The notes under the pieces are model-generated. The model was not told the DNA's origin and did not search any database. It saw only the letters and a list, made by a program, of their open reading frames with translations. From Oxalobacteraceae bacterium CAVE-383 (GTDB lineage Bacteria; Pseudomonadota; Gammaproteobacteria; Burkholderiales; Burkholderiaceae_D), in the NCBI GenBank assembly GCA_004134995.1, contig REGP01000002.1, forward strand, positions 186,001 through 250,000: a DNA stretch of 64,000 nucleotides, given 5' to 3'. A program made the translations under genes and the position numbers. This document shows positions 38,161 through 41,944 of the stretch, piece by piece. Numbering within the stretch: the stretch's first letter is position 1; every line of letters begins with the position of its first letter.

Positions 38161-39978
38161 ATGGCATCCTTCACACTACACGGCATTTCTGTTTCGCAAG
38201 GCATTGCGATCGGACGCGCGCACCTGCTGAAACCGGCGGCGCTGGATGTCGAGCATTATCTGATTGCGCAGGAACAGGTCGAGGCCGAAGTGCAGCGGCT
38301 CAAGGACGCAATCATCGCCGTGCATCAGGAACTGCACACCATCCGCCATGCCTTGCCGAAAGACGCGCCGACCGAGCTGGCCGCTTTCCTGGACGTGCAT
38401 GCGCTGATTTTGTCGGACACCATGCTGTCCGAAATGCCGCTCGAAATCATTCGCAACCGCTATTACAACGCCGAATGGGCGCTGGTTACGCAGATCGATG
38501 AATTGTCGGCCCAGTTCGATGAGATCGAAGACGCGTATCTGCGCGAACGCAAGGCCGATATCCAGCAGGTCGGCGAGCGCATCCTGAAAGTGCTGACCGG
38601 ATCGGCCACGGTGTTGCCGGGGGCCGACGGCGAATCGGCTTCCGCCAACATCATCGTGGTGGCGCACGATATCTCGCCGGCCGACATGCTGCAGTTCCGC
38701 GATCGCGCCTTTGCCGGCTTCGTGACCGATCTGGGCGGGCAGAATTCGCATACGGCGATTGTCGCGCGCAGCCTGGACATTCCGGCAGCGGTCGGCATGC
38801 ATAACGCATCCGGCCTGGTGAAACAGGATGACTTGCTGATCATCGACGGCGATGCCGGCGTGGTCATCGTCGATCCGGCGCCGCTGGTGCTGATGCAGTA
38901 TCGCGAAAGCCAGGCGCGCTTGCTGCGCGACCGCAAAAAATTGGGCCGCCTGAAGAAGACTCCGGCCGTCACGCAGGACGGCGTGCCGATCGATCTGCTG
39001 GCCAATATTGAATTGCCCGACGATTGCCGCGCGGCGATGGATGCCGGCGCCAACGGCGTGGGGCTGTTCCGTTCCGAGTTCCTGTTCATGGGGCGCGGCG
39101 GCTTTCTTGAAAAATTTCCGTCGGAAGATGAGCAGTTCGAAGCCTACCGCAGCACCGTGATGGCGATGAAGGGCCGGCCGGTCACCATCCGCACGCTCGA
39201 CGTCGGCGCCGACAAGCCGCTGGACGCGGACGAGCAGACGGCGTTGAATCCGGCGCTGGGTTTGCGCGCTATCCGTTATTGCCTGGCCGAACCGCAAATT
39301 TTCCTGACCCAGCTGCGCGCCATTCTGCGCGCCTCCGCTTACGGGCCGATCAATCTGCTGATCCCGATGATGGCGCATGCCTTCGAGATCGACCAGACGC
39401 TGGCGCTGGTGGCGCAGGCCAAATCGCAGTTGCAGATGCGCGGACACAAGTTCGATGCCGCCATCCAGATCGGCGCAATGATCGAAATCCCCGCCGCGGC
39501 GCTGGCGTTGCCGATGTTCATCAAACGCCTGGATTTCCTGTCGATCGGCACCAACGACCTGATCCAGTACACGCTGGCGATCGACCGCGTCGATCACGAA
39601 GTCGCGCATCTGTACAACCCGCTGCATCCGGCGATCCTGTATCTGCTCTCCAGCGTCATCGCCATGGGCAAGAAGGCCGATGTGCCGGTGGCCGTGTGCG
39701 GCGAAATGGCGGGCGACATCAAGCTCACGCGCCTGCTGCTGGGCATGGGTTTGTCTGAATTTTCGATGCACCCGGCGCAGTTGCTGTCGGTCAAGCAGGA
39801 AATCCTGAACAGCGACCTGAGCGTGCTGGTGCCGCAGGTCAAGAAAATCCTGCGCTGCACCGAGCCGATGGCGATCGCCGCCGCGGTTGCCGAGCTGCGC
39901 GACGGCAGCGGCGCCGGCGGACAGGCGCCGCAAGCGCCGGCCTCTCCGTCGTCGCGCCGCATCAAGATGGCGATCTGA
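38161..39978 (+). CDS. ptsI: phosphoenolpyruvate-protein phosphotransferase (enzyme I)
   Basis: 605 residues. The N-terminal HPr-binding/phospho-His domain has His197 in GGQNSHTAIVARSLDIPAA. The C-terminal PEP-binding barrel has GANGVGLFRSEFLFMGR, TIRTLDVGADKPL and DFLSIGTNDLIQYTLAIDR, with Cys in VAVCGEMAGD. It is slightly longer than E. coli EI because of a Ser/Gly/Ala tail (GAGGQAPQAPASPSS). EI starts the relay PEP-EI-HPr-EIIA. No separate terminator follows before the metX leader promoter. Confidence 0.95.
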   Translation: MASFTLHGISVSQGIAIGRAHLLKPAALDVEHYLIAQEQVEAEVQRLKDAIIAVHQELHTIRHALPKDAPTELAAFLDVHALILSDTMLSEMPLEIIRNRYYNAEWALVTQIDELSAQFDEIEDAYLRERKADIQQVGERILKVLTGSATVLPGADGESASANIIVVAHDISPADMLQFRDRAFAGFVTDLGGQNSHTAIVARSLDIPAAVGMHNASGLVKQDDLLIIDGDAGVVIVDPAPLVLMQYRESQARLLRDRKKLGRLKKTPAVTQDGVPIDLLANIELPDDCRAAMDAGANGVGLFRSEFLFMGRGGFLEKFPSEDEQFEAYRSTVMAMKGRPVTIRTLDVGADKPLDADEQTALNPALGLRAIRYCLAEPQIFLTQLRAILRASAYGPINLLIPMMAHAFEIDQTLALVAQAKSQLQMRGHKFDAAIQIGAMIEIPAAALALPMFIKRLDFLSIGTNDLIQYTLAIDRVDHEVAHLYNPLHPAILYLLSSVIAMGKKADVPVAVCGEMAGDIKLTRLLLGMGLSEFSMHPAQLLSVKQEILNSDLSVLVPQVKKILRCTEPMAIAAAVAELRDGSGAGGQAPQAPASPSSRRIKMAI

Positions 39979-39990
39979 CGGGGCACCGGT

Positions 39991-40019
39991 TTGACGCGGC
40001 AGGCCGACTTGGTTATTCT
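39991..40019 (+). promoter_or_regulatory. sigma-70 promoter of the metX leader
   Basis: TTGACG (39991-39996) and TATTCT (40014-40019) are separated by 17 bp. Transcription would start near 40026, immediately before the first stem of the leader RNA, about 180 bases upstream of metX. Confidence 0.65.
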
Positions 40020-40027
40020 TGCAGAAT

Positions 40028-40128
40028 TGCGCCGATTTGAGTGATTTGCATCAATCTCAGCTTGCGGGCGCAGGAAGACTCCATGGACGCTGCAACAGCT
40101 CCCGGGTTTCCAAATAAATACGGCTAAA
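40028..40128 (+). promoter_or_regulatory. SAM-II-like riboswitch aptamer candidate in the metX leader
   Basis: Stem P1 is TGCGCC (40028-40033) with GGCGCA (40067-40072). Its loop starts GATTTGA and ends CTTGC. A downstream strand AAATAAATACGGCTAAAG carries GCTAAA at 40123-40128. These elements and their order recall the SAM-II (metA/SAM-alpha) motif that controls metX/metA in alphaproteobacteria. Two extra hairpins would enlarge the loops: TGAGTGAT...ATCAATCTCA at about 40038-40059, and GGAA...TTCC. The expected pseudoknot P2 between the loop and the GCTAAA strand is weak by eye, so the aptamer identity is tentative. Its position directly before metX and an attenuator supports it. Confidence 0.5.
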
Positions 40129-40155
40129 GCGAGCTTGATCCATAAGCCCCGAATT

Positions 40156-40189
40156 AGCCCGCCGAATCTTCGCGGGCTTTTTTATTTTT
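40156..40189 (+). terminator. conditional terminator (attenuator) before metX
   Basis: AGCCCGC (40156-40162) pairs with GCGGGCT (40172-40178), followed by a T-rich run to 40189, only 10-20 bases before the metX start. The left arm GCCCGC is also complementary to GCGGGC at 40064-40069, which overlaps the 3' strand of P1. P1 and an antiterminator pairing therefore exclude each other. Confidence 0.75.
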
Positions 40190-40208
40190 GAACAGAGAAA
40201 TGTCGTCT

Positions 40209-41345
40209 ATGTCGCTTGGAATCGTTGCGCCGCAAACCATGCATTTTGACAAGCCCTTGCAATTGCAGAGCGGGGCGAGGCTGGCCAACTACGACCTGGT
40301 CTATGAAACCTACGGCACGCTGAATGCCGCGCGCTCGAATGCGGTGCTGGTCTGTCACGCGCTGAATGCTTCCCACCATGTGGCCGGCAGATACAGCGAC
40401 GATCCAGACAGCGTCGGCTGGTGGGACAATATGGTCGGCCCGGGCAAGCCGCTCGATACCGATCGTTTTTTTGTCATCGGCGTCAATAATCCAGGTTCCT
40501 GTTTCGGCTCGACCGGGCCAATGCATGTCAATGCGGCAACGGGCAAGCCATACGGCGCCGGTTTTCCGGTGGTCACGGTCGATGATTGGGTGCATGCGCA
40601 GGCCCTGCTGGCCGATGCGCTCGGCATCGAGCAATTCGCGGCCGTGATGGGCGGATCGCTCGGCGGCATGCAGGCGCTCGCATGGAGCATGCTGTTCCCG
40701 CAGCGTTTGCGGCATTGCATCGTGATTGCCTCCACGCCCAAGCTGTCGGCGCAGAACATCGCCTTCAACGACGTCGCGCGCCAGGCCATCCTGACCGACC
40801 CGGATTTCCACGGCGGCGACTATTACGCCTACGGCGTGGTGCCGAAAAACGGTCTGCGCGTGGCGCGCATGGTAGGACACATTACCTATCTGTCGGACGA
40901 CGACATGGCGGAGAAGTTCGGGCGCGAACTGCGCAACGGCGCTTATCAGTTCGGCTACGGCGTCGATTTCGAGATCGAGTCCTACCTGCGCTATCAGGGT
41001 GACAAGTTTTCCACCTATTTCGACGCCAATACCTACCTGCTGATTACCAAGGCGCTCGATTATTTCGACCCGGCGAAGGAATTCGGCGGCGATCTGAGCG
41101 CGGCGTTCCGCAATATCCAGGCCAAGTTCCTGGTGATTTCGTTCATGACCGACTGGCGTTTCGCGCCCGAGCGCAGCCGCGACATGGTGCAGGCGCTGGT
41201 CAAGAACAAGCGGCGCGTCAGCTATGCCGAAATCGATGCGCCGCACGGCCATGACGCTTTCCTGCTGGACGACCCGAGATACATGAAGCTGGTGCGCGAA
41301 TATTACGCGCGCATCTGGAACGAATTGAACGAGGCTGCGGCATGA
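40209..41345 (+). CDS. metX: homoserine O-acyltransferase
   Basis: 378 residues from the ATG at 40209 ([17 protein letters not shown]); in-frame ATG 40200 is an alternative, and the AGAGAA purine stretch fits 40209 better. Alpha/beta-hydrolase fold: [13 protein letters not shown] near 45, [12 protein letters not shown] near 95, nucleophile Ser in [13 protein letters not shown] near 146, and the late Asp and His in [13 protein letters not shown] near 350. It acylates homoserine at the start of methionine synthesis; betaproteobacterial members may use succinyl-CoA rather than acetyl-CoA, which sequence reading cannot settle. The stop overlaps metW (ATGA). Confidence 0.93.
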
Positions 41346-41944
41346 ATTTTTCTGAATTGCGTCTGTTGCGCCCGGATTTGGCCTTTATCGCACATTGGGT
41401 GCGCGTGCAGTCGCATGTGCTCGATCTCGGGTGCGGCGACGGCGTGATGCTGCATTATCTGCAAAGCGACAAGGGCTGCAGCGGCTATGGCATCGAAATC
41501 GACGACGGCCAGATCCCGCTGTGCGTGGCGCGCGAAGTATCGGTCATCCAGCAGGACATGGAGGCCGGCCTGGCGATGTTTGCCGATAACGCGTTCGACA
41601 CGGTGCTGTGCCTGTCCGCGCTGCAAATGATGAAGGACGTCGAGGGAACGCTGCGCGAAATCGCCCGCGTCGGCCGTGAAGCGATCGTCTCTTTCCCGAA
41701 TTTTGCCTATTGGCCGCATCGCCTGGCGCTGTTGCGCGGCCACACCCCGGTATCGAAGTCCCTGCCCTACGATTGGTACGACACGCCCAACCTGCGCTGC
41801 GCGACGATTACCGATTTCGAGGCGCTGGCCAATGAAGTCGGCCTGGAAGTGCTGGAACGGGTCGCGCTGCACGACGGCAGGCCGGTTTCGATGCTGCCGA
41901 ACTGGCGCGGCAGCCTGGCGGTATTCCGTTTGAAGAAAAAATAA
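41342..41944 (+). CDS. metW: MetW, methionine biosynthesis methyltransferase-like partner
   Basis: 200 residues with a class I SAM-binding fold: [17 protein letters not shown] near 23, GIEIDD, then [20 protein letters not shown] and [17 protein letters not shown]. MetW acts together with MetX in many proteobacteria, where MetX alone is poorly active. The four-base overlap with metX fits stoichiometric co-translation. The tail ends LAVFRLKKK. The promoter of the tRNA-tuf operon starts 30 bp after the stop. Confidence 0.93.

Follow-up and report, generated by a model that had tools for sequence, protein, structure and literature searches.

The metX and metW genes in the 64-kb stretch of DNA analysed here (the window) are preceded by a short leader, which raises the question of how their transcription is controlled. 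The first-pass annotation described a promoter, SAM-II landmarks in order and a terminator ending before metX, and all of these are in the sequence, with coordinates that are correct in the 64-kb window (Table 1). The leader is very likely a SAM-II-type SAM riboswitch that turns metX-metW transcription off, a reading drawn from sequence comparison and folding.

Table 1. Features of the metX-metW leader and flanking genes, in window positions.
Feature	Position	Strand	Details
PTS enzyme I-like gene	38161-39978		upstream of leader
Sigma-70-like promoter	39991..40019	+	TTGACG 39991-39996, 17 nt, TATTCT 40014-40019
P1 5' strand UGCGCC	40028..40033	+	pairs with 40067-40072
Third strand of P2 triplex, GAUUUGA	40034..40040	+	conserved in 109-hit alignment
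Inserted L1 hairpin, turn between third strand and P2	40041..40058	+	fold
P2 5' strand GCUUGC	40060..40065	+	invariant core pairs UUGC:GC(U)AA
P1 3' strand GGCGCA	40067..40072	+	covariation with 40028-40033
Inserted P3 hairpin, loop after P1	40073..40111	+	fold, insert z -2.4
Conserved A-rich strand AAAUAAAUAC preceding P2	40112..40121	+	109-hit alignment
P2 3' strand GGCUAAAGC	40122..40130	+	40122-40127 doubles as predicted antiterminator 5' strand
Inner stem of predicted antiterminator hairpin	40133..40147	+	GCUUG 40133-40137 / UAAGC 40143-40147; fold, compensatory changes in relatives
Predicted antiterminator 3' strand UUAGCC	40154..40159	+	overlaps terminator 5' arm
Intrinsic terminator	40157..40189	+	GCCCGC 40157-40162 / GCGGGC 40172-40177, T-rich tail 40178-40189
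metX	40200..41345	+	ATG 40200 or 40209; NF047916 MetX 681.9 bits, cut-off 560
metW	41342..41944	+	TIGR02081 metW 233.6 bits, cut-off 189.5

The three SAM-II landmarks GATTTGA (40034-40040), CTTGC (40061-40065) and GCTAAA (40123-40128) occur in this order once in the window, with 0.005 occurrences expected by chance per base-shuffled 64 kb. A promoter pattern scan gave one match (mean of 0.1 in shuffles), and the transcript is expected to start at about 40026, directly 5' of P1. The terminator was absent from the pattern-scan list, which gave another hairpin at 39987-40006; the folds do form it. A plain fold of 40025-40190 was not unusual (z -1.31), and the support for the element is therefore comparative.

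Relatives were identified using a covariance model (R1) built from 26 relatives with P1 only and with the window excluded from training. In the window's genome, R1 matched the leader at 40027-40132 with 56.4 bits and an E-value of 3.5e-12 in the whole genome. Matches were present in 34/34 genomes of the genus, 109 of the 145 sampled from the family, 291/399 from the order and 36/299 from a phylum sample, with up to five per genome; these samples overlap, and those of more than 40 genomes had stricter filters, which dropped weak matches. In addition, metX loci were collected by protein from named genomes as the best 80 of the list, and among the matches listed the closest were those of Herbaspirillum and Collimonas (MetX 85-92% identical). 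The best 80, together with the loci of the window's genus and family, form the set L001-L110, which by title is mostly Oxalobacteraceae and includes some MAGs titled only Burkholderiaceae, Burkholderiales, Betaproteobacteria, Proteobacteria or Polynucleobacter. By a strict pattern, the element was found in 53 of the best 80 metX loci, while the 27 element-free loci are mostly titled Massilia, Duganella, Pseudoduganella or Rugamonas (one, L065, has merely 30 nt of contig upstream).

A promoter of the same kind lies within 60 nt upstream of 63 of the 66 unique elements in L001-L110 and of 158/199 overall, compared with 0.6% in base-shuffled sequence, and a terminator-like hairpin follows 177 of the 199. 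Within 1.45 kb downstream, 171 of these 199 unique elements precede metX (94), metZ (64), metH (7), metK (5) or a metN-like gene (1), and 28 precede none of them; the counts lean toward metX, since MetX was the query that brought in many of the loci. The terminator-based control of metX(W) put forward in the first-pass annotation is supported. As a separate observation, the window's MetX scored best in NCBIfam against NF047916 (681.9 bits), the exception model for homoserine O-succinyltransferase, ahead of the acetyltransferase models, and the substrate of this MetX may be succinyl-CoA.

Several genomes carry more than one copy, and a second R1 match was found in 16 of the 34 genomes of the genus. 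Two second copies (L291, 1678-1731, and L292, 1636-1689, both on the minus strand) precede metK, have the third strand GAGUUAA in place of GAUUUGA and show no obvious terminator by eye; a changed ligand or mechanism is possible for them. In the window's family, seven second copies (L293, L294, L295, L296, L299, L300 and L301) precede metH, as judged from translation. By eye, six of the seven have a long L1, and the terminators of four contain CCGCTTT, the complement of AAAGCGG in the P2 3' strand. Tandem SAM-II-like elements, with two hits each, were seen at L153, L154, L155, L181, L184, L203, L204, L207 and L235, the second often near the start of a small ORF; the small ORFs from L154, L184 and the single-copy L221 were without an NCBIfam match. 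The SAM-II-less metX leaders of the Massilia/Duganella group (L093-L105, L107 and L109) carry another conserved block directly before metX, at about 1420-1480, composed of a covarying hairpin GCGGnnCC...GGnnCCGC followed by TGGCCCGTGGGGCC. The hairpin showed both-sided changes in 5/16 predicted pairs among 15 sequences, and these loci had no Rfam match at E up to 0.5.

The core of the aptamer was examined in a structure alignment of 109 hits from 100 sources, taken from the window and 290 loci, mostly loci fetched as hits. The P1 and P2 pairs were named beforehand by the analyst and then scored in this alignment. P1 had both-sided changes in four of its six pairs over 107 distinct rows, with pair 40029-40071 being GC, UA or CG across hits. 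The joint covariation score of P1 and P2 was 0.102, against 0.038 for shuffles and no more than 0.030 for slid pairs. P2, which had been called not obvious, is in fact CUUGC paired to GC(U)AA(A)G, the same pairing that SAM-II has. Its core pairs (C40065-G40123, G40064-C40124, U40063-A40126 and U40062-A40127) are invariant and present in every row with letters, and the core shows no covariation of its own because its pairs never vary. The outer P2 pairs (C40061-G40129 and G40060-C40130) are paired in 85.7% of cells.

U40125, A40126 and A40128 were conserved in 109/109 hits, and the third-strand uridines U40036, U40037 and U40038 in 106, 109 and 109 of the 109, respectively. In the SAM-V structure as described by Huang and Lilley, the corresponding nucleotides are U47, paired to the SAM adenine, A48, U20 with U9 next to the sulfonium, and A50, which anchors the amino-acid end (PMC6061858). 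The order UUG...UAAA and GAUUUG suggests a mapping of the window onto SAM-V numbering, and the mapped SAM contacts were 97-100% conserved in the 109 hits: 106/109, 109/109 and 107/107 (two gaps) for the positions of U8, U9 and U20, and 109/109 each for those of U47, A48 and A50. The 56.4-bit R1 match, the P1 covariation and these conserved contacts support the first-pass reading of a divergent, long-loop form of SAM-II-type aptamer, for which SAM is the predicted ligand.

The standard library gives a different impression. At gathering thresholds, Rfam returned tRNAs from the window and no SAM family, and for 39900-40300 at E up to 10 it again returned no SAM family; the SAM-II and long-loop SAM-II covariance models, named in the first-pass annotation as a means of checking, thus found nothing there. 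The SAM-II model RF00521 also gave no match in the window's own genome, where control searches were equally empty, and its gathering cut-off of 36 bits was not reached by the window. Among relatives with compact loops, RF00521 matched 9/9 at the same spot, all below gathering (22.6-33.5 bits, best E 8.5e-4), and among those with longer loops it matched 0/6 at E up to 1. Matches above gathering were obtained at more distant R1 loci (5/20 in one set and 4/14 in another). The two extra hairpins very probably conceal the window element from the library. For the long-loop model RF01726, 39900-40300 (E up to 10) and 15 relatives (E up to 1) were both without a match, and the SAM-V Rfam family had none in the window, in 39900-40300 or in the 15 relatives.

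Several known systems come close to the element. With SAM-II (RF00521; Corbino et al., 2005, PMC1273637) the element shares P1, GAUUUGA, CUUGC, the A-rich strand, GCUAAA, a promoter directly before P1, a terminator after P2 and methionine genes; it differs in the added L1 and P3 hairpins and in having only about two pairs beyond the P2 core. The first-pass annotation was right that SAM-II is best known from alphaproteobacteria, and a betaproteobacterial example, Bordetella bronchiseptica, has been in print since 2005, named in a figure legend (PMC1273637). Alpha-, Beta- and Gammaproteobacteria are reported to be where SAM-II occurs most often (PMC2704228), and tandem SAM-II is already known (PMC9481103); SAM-II in this group is therefore not new in principle. 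The name of the family SAM-II long loops (RF01726; Weinberg et al., 2010, PMC2864571) marks it as related to SAM-II but with larger loops; unlike the window element, it is listed for Bacteroidetes and marine DNA. SAM-V (PMC6061858) shares the pseudoknot core, the ligand site and the P3 stem-loop; however, it is described as translational, whereas the window element has a terminator, and it has a 3-nt turn where the window has the L1 hairpin.

The metXZ element (Leyn et al., 2014, PMC4239095) was described in 35 genomes as a betaproteobacterial metXW/metZ leader with conserved blocks, a pseudoknot and a terminator, and the window element almost certainly belongs to this set. As presented in that paper, metXZ is a new family given no ligand, with one copy per genome, regions 1-4 and 2-6 paired, region 3 unpaired, and regions 3 and 4 speculated to act as antiterminator. 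In contrast, the present analysis gives P2 as CUUGC:GCUAA, predicts a ligand, finds up to five model hits per genome and adds metH, metK and a metN-like gene to those preceded by a copy. Under the name metXZ, a known switch, SAM-II, thus appears to have been published in disguise, as a new element for which no ligand was given. Furthermore, the Burkholderia sRNA Bp2_287 (RF02424; Khoo et al., 2012, PMC3521395) is the same element, also in metX/metZ context, but its Rfam model is typed as an sRNA gene and lies on the strand opposite to the riboswitch. At L210 (1472-1674, minus strand) it scored 107.5 bits on the strand opposite to the element, with metZ downstream on the R1 strand; it covered 10/15 relatives on the opposite strand, below gathering, and on the window's opposite strand (40021-40182) reached 14.6 bits (E 0.45) against a gathering cut-off of 70 bits. 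The start of the RF02424 model is the riboswitch terminator read backwards, and the entry is probably a strand error in the library. In the literature searched, accessible in part, neither a published statement linking metXZ or RF02424 to SAM-II nor a published hairpin-capped SAM-II form was found.

The library typing nevertheless has to be weighed, since the leader could be no riboswitch but a conserved protein-binding leader or small RNA with its own promoter and terminator, which would likewise yield a short RNA. Khoo et al. count the element among RT-PCR verified sRNAs, yet they also noted metX/metZ and themselves proposed a cis element for methionine genes (PMC3521395). As the promoter, P1 and poly-U terminator are all oriented toward the methionine gene and the SAM-II ligand site is conserved nucleotide by nucleotide, this explanation is considered improbable. 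A SAM-II fold with a changed ligand (SAH, methionine or another adenosyl compound), or with tolerance of SAH, is rated as improbable to nearly the same degree, if a shade less so. The ligand triplex carries the extra L1 hairpin at its tip, and the GAGUUAA of the metK-leader copies in two genomes of the genus indicates that third-strand changes do happen; but the mapped contacts are intact in the window and in nearly all 109 hits, those made by the two uridines beside the sulfonium among them, and the downstream genes are mostly those of methionine and SAM synthesis. Finally, a terminator with an alternative hairpin would also suit another classical attenuator (T-box-like or a leader peptide) that resembles SAM-II by chance. 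Given that the landmarks recur in hundreds of genomes, are that rare in shuffled windows and are accompanied in the window by no Rfam match but tRNAs at gathering, this is the least credible explanation by some way.

With a SAM-II-type OFF switch as the preferred reading, the proposed mechanism is as follows. RNA polymerase would start just 5' of P1, which would be the first helix to fold. With SAM present, GGCUAA of the P2 3' strand would be locked in the pseudoknot, so that the GCCCGC/GCGGGC terminator would form and metX would be left untranscribed. With SAM absent, P2 would be open and GGCUAA (40122-40127) would pair with UUAGCC (40154-40159), the two being drawn together by the small stem at 40133-40147; this antiterminator would occlude the terminator arm and metX would be expressed. 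The L1 and P3 hairpins would enlarge the loops and leave the binding site untouched. This P2-strand pairing is probably the one used in the window.

The folding energies of the window, which omit pseudoknots and SAM, favour this arrangement. The transcript to 40168 had a minimum free energy of -43.2 kcal/mol, with P1, the L1 hairpin, P3 and the GGCUAA:UUAGCC antiterminator all formed. The first-pass annotation had proposed a different antiterminator, between GCGGGC at 40064-40069, which is present as claimed, and GCCCGC at 40157-40162; when forced, this gave -35.8 kcal/mol, or 7.4 kcal/mol worse. At full length, P1 plus terminator reached -50.6 kcal/mol, the P2-strand antiterminator -47.1 kcal/mol and the earlier proposal -41.3 kcal/mol. 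Among the relatives, the P2-strand antiterminator formed in 32/37 folded leaders (mean z -2.06), which were selected for a TAGCCCG- or CAGCCCG-like end from the 56 unique leader pieces of L001-L110 with an AGCCCG- or GGCCCG-like block; six further leaders lack the block. Compensatory changes were found in the inner stem (U-A to C-G in L067, L072, L081 and L091; G-C to A-U in L062, L081 and L091), and RNAalifold gave only four pairs in the antiterminator region, all invariant and without covariation. The outer clamp of the antiterminator was invariant in the tested leaders. TTAGCC occurred in 22/40 unique riboswitch terminators of L001-L110 and in 3/159 other terminators from the window and the L001-L110 loci, the 40 not being independent because they come from orthologous leaders.

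A rival for this step retains the same aptamer and OFF switch but pairs the P1 3'/P2 5' strand CUUGCGGGC with the terminator 5' arm GCCCG..., which would require P1 to open without SAM. In L001-L110, GCCCG is found in 38 of the same 40 terminators and 13/159 of the others. In arm shuffles of this set the P1-strand complement had a mean z of -1.91 (33/64 below -1.5) and the P2-strand complement remained at chance level (-0.14; 4/64); by pair probabilities (at least three expected pairs) the P1-strand partner was found in 31/64 and the P2 3' strand in 26/64, the 64 leaders including many similar Herbaspirillum ones. Several Herbaspirillum leaders (e.g., L007 and L019) are matched better by a lengthened pairing of at least 9 nt, GCUUGCGGGC:GCCCGCAAGC, complements of at least 8 nt occur in 20/177 terminators, and L007 folds so. 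However, in the window the pairing carries the energy penalty given above before the terminator is complete, and at the other loci the shuffles were reversed (P2 strand -1.34, 50/113; P1 strand -0.23, 9/113), with the P1-strand partner rare beyond L110 (7/113). Moreover, P1 in a studied metX SAM-II was reported to be protected with or without SAM (PMC10907184). The P1-strand antiterminator is accordingly regarded as unlikely for the window, although the shuffle tests favour it across the window's relatives. Both antiterminators would trap a P2 strand, and both are therefore predicted to give OFF switches with SAM.

A single antiterminator pairing for all lineages was considered and rejected: P2-strand complements of at least 6 nt were present in 61/177 terminators and P1-strand complements in 37/177, and the shuffle tests gave different partners in different groups. 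It is concluded that the partner varies by lineage overall. TTTAGC occurred in only 47/177 terminator regions, a point against the P2-strand pairing, the adjacent nucleotide matching by Watson-Crick in 37/47, of which 28 are one G-C type, mostly from L001-L110. CGCAAGC was found in 21/156 terminator regions against 3/296, and may represent either one strand of an antiterminator or a widespread loop of the GNRA type.

The inserted hairpins were counted among elements fitting the strict pattern. L3 inserts of at least 18 nt were found in 59/152 unique sequences, 55 of which fold with z below -1 (mean z -2.5), and the window's P3 insert agrees with this (z -2.4). L1 inserts of at least 13 nt were found in 22/99, 13 of them with z below -1 (mean -1.7); the window's L1 insert alone is not significant (z -0.1). 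The 53 element-bearing loci among the best 80 metX loci comprise 30 with long L1 and L3, 12 with long L3 only and 11 with neither, and the other 133 unique elements include none with a long L1 and 17 with a long L3. P3 is thus SAM-V-like, and the L1 hairpin was observed in the window's relatives only. Tentatively, and with rather less than even confidence, SAM-II, SAM-V, "SAM-II long loops", metXZ and RF02424 may be one superfamily, within which a hairpin-capped form with a SAM-V-like P3 evolved in the Oxalobacteraceae; this form would have a helix in place of the tight turn between third strand and P2. It suggests that the SAM-II triplex tolerates a helix at its turn. If true, the form would make up a structural class of its own within the SAM-II superfamily and not a long-loop oddity, and its capping helix could serve to adjust affinity, selectivity or the rate of folding.

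If the leader is indeed a SAM-II-type switch, SAM would be assigned as ligand to a widespread betaproteobacterial methionine regulator that was published without one, and part of the element would be filed in the standard library on the wrong strand as an sRNA. In the order, where model hits were found in 291/399 genomes, SAM-II would then have a major part in regulating metX, metZ, metH and metK.
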